From: Capnocytophaga cynodegmi DSM 19736
GTDB taxonomy: Bacteria; Bacteroidota; Bacteroidia; Flavobacteriales; Flavobacteriaceae
DNA: 64,000 nucleotides
NCBI RefSeq assembly: GCF_000379185.1
Contig: NZ_KB900703.1
Span: 156,499 to 220,498, forward strand
Reading direction: 5' to 3'
Shown here: in pieces, positions 57,005 to 59,958 of the stretch
How positions within the stretch are numbered: position 1 is the first letter of the stretch
How the letters are laid out: each line of letters opens with the position of its first letter
The notes under the pieces: generated by a model
The model's input: only the letters and a program-made list of their open reading frames with translations
Told to the model about the DNA's origin: nothing
Database searches by the model: none
Made by a program: the position numbers and the translations under genes

Positions 57005-57682
57005 ATGTTAAAAAGAATTCTCAGTTATATTATTCCTATTACAATTCACAAACGAGAATCGTCTGTTAGTAAGTCAATTGAAGTGGTTTTTCGTGATGGA
57101 CGTTTGGTTTTGGATACGCCCAACACAAACTATTCTTACGGAAGTTTACAACGGATTTTACGAAAAGGCTTGAAAAAAATAGGTTTTACAGAAATACAAA
57201 AGATGGAAAGTATTTTAGTTTTGGGTTTGGCTGGAGGTAGCGTTGTAAAAACTTTGGTTGATGAAATTTCATACAAAGGAAAAATAACCGCTGTTGATAT
57301 TGATAAAGAGATTGTTGAAGTTGCGAAAACATATTTTAATCTTGATGAAATTGAAAATTTAGAAATTATTGTTGATGATGCACAGCAATTTGTGCATAAA
57401 TCAAAATCAAAATATAATTTGATTATTATTGACGTTTTTCAAGATGATAAAATGCCTGAGTTTTTGTTCTCCCCAGAATTTGTAAATAGAGTACTTTCTT
57501 TGCGGACATTTAATGGAAAAATATTGTTTAATACAATGAAAAACAATAAGAGACAATCTGAAAGGAATGCAAATTTTATCAGATTTTGCGAACAAACTAA
57601 TTTGGTAAAAGTAATTCCAAATGTGGAAGGAAGCAACGAATTAATAATTATTTCAGAGAAAGAAAGTAATTTTGCTGAATAG
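57005..57682 (+). CDS. Spermidine-synthase-like SAM-fold protein
   Basis: The 225-residue protein has a Rossmann methyltransferase core: ILVLGLAGGSVVKTL, ITAVDIDKEIVEVAKTYFNL and YNLIIIDVFQDDKMPEFLF. Family members transfer aminopropyl groups, but the glycine loop GLAGGS differs from the GGGDGG of true spermidine synthases, so activity is uncertain. It lies 21 nt after the LpxH-like gene. Confidence 0.78.
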   Translation: MLKRILSYIIPITIHKRESSVSKSIEVVFRDGRLVLDTPNTNYSYGSLQRILRKGLKKIGFTEIQKMESILVLGLAGGSVVKTLVDEISYKGKITAVDIDKEIVEVAKTYFNLDEIENLEIIVDDAQQFVHKSKSKYNLIIIDVFQDDKMPEFLFSPEFVNRVLSLRTFNGKILFNTMKNNKRQSERNANFIRFCEQTNLVKVIPNVEGSNELIIISEKESNFAE

Positions 57683-57722
57683 AATTTATTGTCTTTGAAG
57701 TTTATTTTTTTTTGAGCAAAAT

Positions 57723-57753
57723 TTGTGAGTTTCAGAAAAAAAATGCATATTTG
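57723..57753 (+). promoter_or_regulatory. Promoter of rpsU
   Basis: TTG (57723-57725), 20 nt and CATATTTG (57746-57753), one mismatch from TAnnTTTG. The ATG is at 57783. Confidence 0.6.
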
Positions 57754-57766
57754 CAGCCCAAATGAG

Positions 57767-57774
57767 AGGAGGTG
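57767..57774 (+). promoter_or_regulatory. Perfect Shine-Dalgarno of rpsU
   Basis: AGGAGGTG is fully complementary to the CACCUCCU anti-Shine-Dalgarno of 16S rRNA and lies 8 nt before the ATG. I see no site of similar strength before the other genes of the window. Confidence 0.85.
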
Positions 57775-57782
57775 TGTAGATT

Positions 57783-57977
57783 ATGTTAATAATACCAGTA
57801 AAAGACGGCGAAAGCATCGACAAAGCGTTAAAACGTTACAAAAGAAAATTTGACAGAACGGGAGTTGTTCGTAAACTTCGCGAAAAGCAGCATTTTACAA
57901 AAAATTCTGTGAAGAGAAGAAATGAACTACAAAAAGCTCGATACATCCAATATTTGAGAGATCAAGAGGAAGTATAG
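57783..57977 (+). CDS. rpsU: Ribosomal protein bS21
   Basis: The 64-residue basic protein (IPVKDGESIDKALKRYKRKFDRTG) is bS21, bound to the 30S platform beside the 16S 3' end. In Bacteroidota it is known to help hide the anti-Shine-Dalgarno. Its own gene has a perfect Shine-Dalgarno, which fits feedback control: ribosomes lacking bS21 would translate rpsU best. It is followed by two terminators. Confidence 0.96.
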   Translation: MLIIPVKDGESIDKALKRYKRKFDRTGVVRKLREKQHFTKNSVKRRNELQKARYIQYLRDQEEV

Positions 57978-57995
57978 TCATTTTAAAGATAAATT

Positions 57996-58030
57996 AAAAA
58001 TCCGTTTCTAAAACAGAAACGGATTTTTTT
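57996..58030 (+). terminator. Terminator 1 after rpsU
   Basis: AAAAATCCGTTTCT and AGAAACGGATTTTTTT form a strong stem ending in a T-run. Confidence 0.9.
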
Positions 58031-58068
58031 GTACAAATTTTACAGATTGATAAAAGATAGTAAGTTCA

Positions 58069-58098
58069 AGCAGAGATTTTTCTCTGCTTTTTATTTTT
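58069..58098 (+). terminator. Terminator 2 before lepA
   Basis: AGCAGAGA (58069-58076), TTTT loop and TCTCTGCT (58081-58088) followed by a T-rich tract. Confidence 0.8.
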
Positions 58099-58124
58099 CT
58101 TCTTTTTCCTTTGCACTTTTTTCG

Positions 58125-58132
58125 TATCTTTG
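58125..58132 (+). promoter_or_regulatory. -7 box of lepA
   Basis: TATCTTTG matches consensus, 29 nt before the lepA ATG. It sits downstream of two terminators, so lepA needs its own promoter. Confidence 0.6.
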
Positions 58133-58161
58133 CCAATTACAACAAATTGAAAACAAGAGAA

Positions 58162-59958
58162 ATGAAAAACATACGCAATTTTTGCATCATCGCACACATT
58201 GACCACGGAAAAAGTACGCTGGCTGACCGCCTTTTGGACTTTACCAAAACCATCACCGAACGCGAAAAACAAGACCAACTCCTTGATAATATGGACTTAG
58301 AGCGTGAACGAGGGATTACCATTAAAAGTCACGCCATCCAAATGGAATACGAATACAAAGGCGAAACCTATATTCTGAACCTCATCGATACGCCGGGTCA
58401 CGTGGATTTCTCTTACGAAGTGTCGCGTTCCATTGCTGCTTGCGAAGGAGCATTGCTTATCGTTGATGCGGCACAAAGCATTCAGGCTCAGACGATTTCA
58501 AACCTGTATTTAGCTTTGGAAAACGATTTGGAAATCATTCCTATCTTAAATAAAATCGACCTTCCTTCGGCTAATCCTGAGGAAGTGAAAGACGATATCG
58601 TGGACTTGCTTGGCTGTTCACCTGATGATATTATTCCAGCTTCTGGAAAAACGGGCTTAGGCGTGGAACAAATCCTCGAAGCTATCATCGAACGCATTCC
58701 TGCACCGAAAGGCGACCCCGAAGCTCCGTTACAAGCCCTGATTTTCGATTCGGTTTATAATCCGTTTCGTGGGGTGGAAACGTATTTCCGTGTGATGAAC
58801 GGGAAAATTTCCAAAAACGACAAAATCAAATTTATGTCTTCCGACAGGATTTACCAAGCCGACGAGGTGGGAACGCTCAAACTCAATCAAGTACCTAAAC
58901 CTTTCGTGGGTTGTGGCGATGTGGGCTACCTCATCACGGGGATAAAAGACGCTCGTGAGGTAAAAGTGGGCGACACCATTACCACCGCTCAAAATGGTTG
59001 TACCGAAGCCATCGACGGATTTGAAGATGTTAAACCGATGGTGTTTGCTGGAATCTATCCTGTTGATACAGAGGATTATGAAGAGCTTCGGGCTTCAATG
59101 GAAAAACTGCAACTTAATGATGCGTCGCTCGTTTTCACGCCAGAAAGTTCGGCGGCGTTAGGCTTTGGTTTCCGTTGTGGTTTCCTTGGGATGTTGCATT
59201 TGGAAATCATTCAAGAGCGATTGGAACGCGAGTTCGATATGACGGTAATTACCACCGTTCCGAACGTTAGCTACTTGGCTTATACGAAGAAAGACCCTGA
59301 AACGCCTATCGTGGTAAATAACCCGTCTGACCTTCCCGACCCATCGAAATTGGACAGAGTGGAAGAGCCTTACATCAAGGCGTCGGTGATTACCAAAGCA
59401 GATTTTGTGGGGCAAGTGATGTCGCTTTGTATCGAAAAACGCGGACAAATTACCAATCAAACATATTTAACTCCCGAGCGTGTAGAACTGAATTTCGATA
59501 TGCCATTGGCGGAAATCGTGTTTGATTTCTACGACCGATTAAAAACAGTATCAAAGGGTTACGCTTCGTTCGATTATTCGCCAATCGGAATGCGTGCCTC
59601 AAACTTGGTAAAAGTGGATGTGCTTATCAATGCCAATTCGGTGGATGCCCTTTCAGCTTTGATTCACGCCGATAATGCGTATAACATCGGGAAGAAAATG
59701 TGCGAAAAACTCCGCGAACTGATTCCGCGTCAGCAGTTTGACATTCCAATTCAGGCGGCTATCGGAGCGAAAATCATCGCTCGTGAAACCATCAAAGCCC
59801 TCCGCAAAGACGTTACCGCAAAATGTTACGGAGGTGATATCTCCCGTAAACGTAAACTCCTTGAAAAACAGAAAAAAGGAAAGAAACGTATGCGCCAAAT
59901 CGGAAATGTAGAAGTGCCACAATCTGCTTTTATGGCGGTGTTGAAACTGAATGATTAG
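58162..59958 (+). CDS. lepA: Elongation factor 4 (LepA)
   Basis: The 598-residue translational GTPase has G1 [14 protein letters not shown]2 RGITI, G3 DTPGH and G4 NKID, then EF-G-like domains and the LepA-specific C-terminus ([19 protein letters not shown]). It back-translocates or frees stalled ribosomes. I chose ATG 58162, giving the standard 598 residues; the open frame reaches TTG 58111 but covers the promoter. Codon use is richer in G/C-ending codons than in neighbouring genes, as in highly expressed genes. Confidence 0.97.

Follow-up and report, generated by a model that had tools for sequence, protein, structure and literature searches.

The rpsU gene in the Capnocytophaga cynodegmi window (the whole stretch of 64,000 nucleotides that was analyzed) is preceded by a Shine-Dalgarno (SD) site that we take, with a probability of about 93%, to be the autoregulatory extended SD of Bacteroidota rpsU (Table 1). 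The mechanism of this autoregulation is already known, and the addition made here is a genus-level confirmation of its sequence hallmarks in Capnocytophaga.

In F. johnsoniae, ribosomes without bS21 preferentially translate rpsU via its extended SD, which has been shown by reporters, by bS21 mutants and depletion, and with purified ribosomes (McNutt et al., 2023; PMC9976891). On rpsU mRNA, initiation by purified ribosomes is faster when they lack bS21 (PMC9976891), and a 2024 review restates the same mechanism (PMC10931766). The preliminary description of the window had proposed that the SD ties translation of rpsU to ribosomes lacking bS21; given the experiments in F. johnsoniae this interpretation is right and already published (PMC9976891). 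It shows that the mechanism could be inferred by a reader who had nothing but the sequence. The literature search found no paper joining Capnocytophaga, rpsU and Shine-Dalgarno, and Capnocytophaga is not named in the main text of PMC9976891.

From homology and sequence, we infer that the loop operates in this Capnocytophaga genome as well. Ribosomes replete with bS21 would hold the 3' tail of the 16S rRNA in a pocket of bS21, bS18, and bS6 and ignore SDs. At low levels of bS21, the anti-SD of ribosomes lacking the protein would be free to form about 12 bp with the leader of rpsU, and bS21 would be made until the ribosomes are replete. Anti-SD sequestration in the Bacteroidetes ribosome is known from structural work in F. 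johnsoniae (Jha et al., 2021, via PMC8710568 and PMC9976891) and explains why other genes lack SDs. The genome of the window shares with the F. johnsoniae rpsU loop a standout extended SD, the 16S anti-SD and Tyr54, and solo transcription from a ~25-nt leader is predicted for it; it differs in belonging to another genus, not in kind. A clear case of specialized ribosomes in bacteria, in which one gene is regulated by ribosomes missing one protein, has its sequence hallmarks in Capnocytophaga.

Table 1. Features at the rpsU locus of the window.
Feature	Coordinates	Strand	Details
Candidate -7 promoter element CATATTTG	57746..57753	+	TAnnTTTG with one mismatch; 29 nt separate it from the start codon
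Predicted short 5' leader, ~25 nt	57758..57782	+	From the promoter element and the 25-nt leader predicted in F. johnsoniae
Extended Shine-Dalgarno GAGAGGAGGTGT	57764..57775	+	Forms 12 bp with the 16S rRNA tail; AGGAGGTG core at 57767-57774
rpsU, ribosomal protein bS21	57783..57977	+	64 aa; Tyr54 present
Terminator-like hairpin	57996..58030	+	After rpsU; 15-pair stem, 3-nt loop, T run

The rpsU locus and its transcription unit

The identity of bS21 is supported by a profile search (PF01165 at 65.3 bits, where the cut-off is 27), and rpsU is the single bS21 match in the whole 2.66-Mb genome. The Tyr54 it encodes is the residue that stacks on the 16S tail. Among the matches listed, the named organisms with the most similar bS21 are Capnocytophaga, and the protein of C. 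felis is 100% identical. The gene lies between a methyltransferase-like gene upstream and lepA downstream.

A promoter-like element upstream and a terminator-like hairpin downstream suggest that rpsU probably forms a transcription unit of its own with a ~25-nt leader; the native leader in F. johnsoniae is likewise predicted to be 25 nt long (PMC9976891). TAnnTTTG, which we take to be the Bacteroidota-type -7 consensus, occurs in the 90 nt upstream of rpsU in 76 of 81 leaders (the window and 80 relatives among the matches listed), while shuffled leaders carry it in a mean of 5.7 and a maximum of 13 of 81. The looser NAnnTTTG alone is found in four of these leaders, the window included, and neither form in the remaining one. 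The hairpin was reported on the minus strand only, yet the plus strand likewise has a T run behind the stem, and it is probably the end of the rpsU transcript.

A structured leader or a known RNA element was considered and dropped. The leader with the early codons folds no better than shuffled sequences (z 0.34), and of seven Rfam matches at E-values up to 1 in 57400-58300 none reaches the gathering score and none lies over the leader. The lowest E-value (1.1e-06) belongs to AsrC, which scores 29.1 of 111 bits and lies antisense at the start of lepA.

Pairing with the 16S rRNA

The core of the SD is separated from the rpsU start codon (57783-57785) by a gap of 8 nt (57775-57782), in agreement with the spacing originally described. 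The 16S rRNA of the same genome ends in GGAACACCTCCTTTCT and carries the canonical anti-SD. Leader and tail form a duplex of 12 contiguous base pairs, including one G-U pair, at -21.3 kcal/mol. This energy, computed with ViennaRNA where McNutt et al. (2023) used free_scan, passes the published mark of -13 kcal/mol, below which rpsU pairing typically lies, with 9-13 bp; about 80% of Flavobacteriales fit the published criteria (PMC9976891). Among 54 other ORFs of the window (at least 90 aa, with the ATG start chosen freely within roughly the first 30 codons) the next best value is -9.4 kcal/mol, and scoring each ORF at its first ATG gives a mean of -1.9 kcal/mol.

Three ribosomal genes that were scored individually pair less well: the leaders of rpsR, rpsF, and rplI give -5.1, +2.1, and -8.8 kcal/mol, respectively. 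For Flavobacteriales, rpsU has been described as the only ribosomal gene with an SD (PMC8710568). The claim of the preliminary description that rpsU alone carries a perfect SD is slightly overstated where moderate sites are concerned, as the rplI leader (L212, G000:C5) contains the moderate SD-like site AAAAGGAGT.

Strong SD sites in the genome

Across the genome, AAGGAGG-N(3-10)-ATG occurs 58 times compared with 81 times for the reversed control, and AGGAGGT-N(2-10)-ATG, with rpsU among its matches, 58 times compared with 77. Both patterns thus fall below their reversed controls and such sites are not enriched. The 91 stretches around the pattern matches hold 109 pattern rows, corresponding to 92 distinct sites besides rpsU, with the nearest ATG to the site taken per row and each site counted once per pattern. 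Of these rows, 102 are entirely contained in open frames that span at least 120 codons on either strand, and the other seven precede ORFs of just 3-40 codons; the strongest row besides rpsU reaches -18.2 kcal/mol. Three sites (L103, L128, and L177) stand before long frames whose opening lies fewer than 60 codons upstream, and their ATGs were judged to be internal methionines because each frame has earlier ATGs. Under the two patterns, ATG starts and open-frame rules used here in place of gene annotation, which put short genes, other starts and other SD forms outside the check, none of the 92 sites yielded a second convincing gene behind a strong SD. Within this scope, many other genes with equally strong sites, which the preliminary description had named as speaking against its reading, were not seen.

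Strong SDs boost initiation in many bacteria, and the site might accordingly provide only strong constitutive translation of rpsU, with no feedback. We consider this very unlikely, since both SD patterns are rarer in this genome than their reversed controls, and since in F. johnsoniae SDs are otherwise avoided and mutation or depletion of bS21 lifts an rpsU'-gfp reporter by a factor of three to more than four, while SD-less reporters remain nearly flat (PMC9976891).

The anti-SD has another probable use in the same genome. A prfB-type programmed frameshift also relies on anti-SD pairing with an internal SD and differs in acting in elongation, not in initiation (PMC8710568). Such a site, with the perfect internal SD AGGAGGTATCTTTGAC (L211, G000:C9:311-326), is found in frame before an RF2-like sequence. 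From this internal SD it follows that rpsU is not the sole place where the anti-SD probably matters. We presume the frame after AGGAGGTATCTTTGAC to be RF2.

Conservation in relatives

The extended rpsU SD has been surveyed across Bacteroidota (PMC9976891). Both kinds of check that the preliminary description had proposed, reporters under altered bS21 and a survey of rpsU leaders, are already covered by that work. Here, the extended SD is present in all 20 Capnocytophaga genomes found (-17.8 to -21.5 kcal/mol) and in all 80 relatives kept of at least 501 (-17.6 to -21.9 kcal/mol), with every energy computed with the 16S tail of the window genome and not the relatives' own. Both sets were picked by similarity to the bS21 of the window and therefore consist of close relatives and are not a survey of the phylum. 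Some of the 80 are metagenome-assembled, and ten are Capnocytophaga, so that the two sets overlap. Among the matches listed, the DNA flanking the SD varies between relatives while the SD stays.

An ATG upstream of the SD opens a mini-ORF over it (ATG AGA GGA GGT GTG TAG, 57762-57779), which is in frame with rpsU and ends 3 nt before its start. Translation of this leader frame could in principle control rpsU. The stop-terminated form is present in the window, in six of the 20 genus leaders as read by eye, and in four of the ten Capnocytophaga among the 80 relatives (among the matches listed). By the same reading, an ATG is missing at this place in nine of the 20 genus leaders, and in five the frame runs into or overlaps rpsU. 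None of the 70 relatives outside Capnocytophaga among the matches listed has the stop-terminated form; 39 of them lack an ATG in the last 30 nt, 27 have one out of frame, and four have one in frame without a stop. Control by the mini-ORF is highly improbable and was dropped, its stop-terminated form being confined to part of Capnocytophaga. A purine-rich motif arising by chance deserves next to no credence: 51 of 18,280 window 23-mers sampled on both strands do reach -13 kcal/mol, but the SD is the strongest of them (minimum -21.3 kcal/mol), is correctly spaced from the start codon, and is kept in 80 of 80 relatives among the matches listed with varying flanks. The reading as an autoregulatory extended SD agrees with these patterns of conservation.

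Covariation between the 16S rRNA and the leader was also tested, by comparing the 16S base that follows the anti-SD core (E. coli position 1532) with the leader base after AGGAGGTG, which is T in Capnocytophaga and A in many relatives. The idea was rejected because all listed matches carry A at that 16S position; these matches came from 56 of 149 family genomes, and the other 93 gave no match, so that genomes with draft gaps or different tails would escape this comparison.

One provirus-bearing contig (L213:2975-3198) has an rpsU leader with TGAGATG in place of AGGAGGTG. Its rpsU lies beside genes for a tyrosine recombinase and a Ribosomal_S30AE family protein, and these neighbors suggest that it belongs to the host chromosome at a provirus. 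A phage bS21 with a decayed SD was rejected on the same neighbor genes, and the locus was left out of the phage count below. With a 16S tail that has the alternative anti-SD core UCUCA, the duplex of this leader reaches -13.6 kcal/mol, compared with -4.5 kcal/mol for the canonical tail. It would fit the leader/anti-SD covariation described for Chryseobacterium-like species (PMC8710568).

Phage-borne bS21

None of 90 phage bS21 loci is at or below -13 kcal/mol, in contrast to 80 of 80 host loci (among the matches listed). The 90 viral loci (among L214-L325) comprise 29 loci, 56 further contigs and five more, with 38 distinct leaders and 41 distinct proteins, and many are near copies. The 56 contigs are a set of 80 loci (80 kept of 122) minus 24 already in the source of the 29-locus set; the five were taken from 12 records, of which H4 equals H3 in length and coordinates, and H7-H12 were left out. 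For two contigs the neighbors were checked, and in each three of five ORFs match portal, terminase or head-protease families and two match none; the remaining contigs are classed as viral by their source collection. The best phage leader, AAAGGAGG on a 735-kb phage record, reaches -12.1 kcal/mol and the next -5.1 kcal/mol. With the alternative anti-SD tail, 0 of the 90 phage loci reach -13 kcal/mol (best -3.3 kcal/mol).

Phage bS21 has been reported to carry an aromatic residue at position 54 (Chen et al., 2022; PMC9723584). Tyr is found at this position in 87 of the 90 phage proteins by script, and the other three show Tyr by eye. The accessible part of PMC9723584 holds no discussion of the leader of the phage bS21 gene, and the host-phage contrast in bS21 leaders is possibly new.

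Since phage bS21 leaders lack an SD while the protein keeps Tyr54, phage bS21 should stay free of the loop and might turn off the bS21 of the host. If it is taken up into host ribosomes and holds the 16S tail there, its presence should silence host rpsU via the host's feedback. A tentative and rather doubtful extension is that phage bS21 both escapes and exploits the loop: phage genes that lost the extended SD, or never possessed it, would be freely translated by bS21-replete, SD-blind ribosomes, and their Tyr54-bearing product, after incorporation into ribosomes, would silence host rpsU and take over. McNutt et al. (2023) instead speculate that the loop lets the host replenish bS21 as a counter-defence (PMC9976891). 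The contrast is best read as phage genes standing outside the loop and not as selection removing the site, because lacking an SD is the default in SD-blind hosts. It opens a more direct way to test why bS21 genes are carried by phages.

Immediately before the start codon, many phage bS21 leaders have a TATATTTATTATCAT-like motif in common, which is perhaps a phage promoter.
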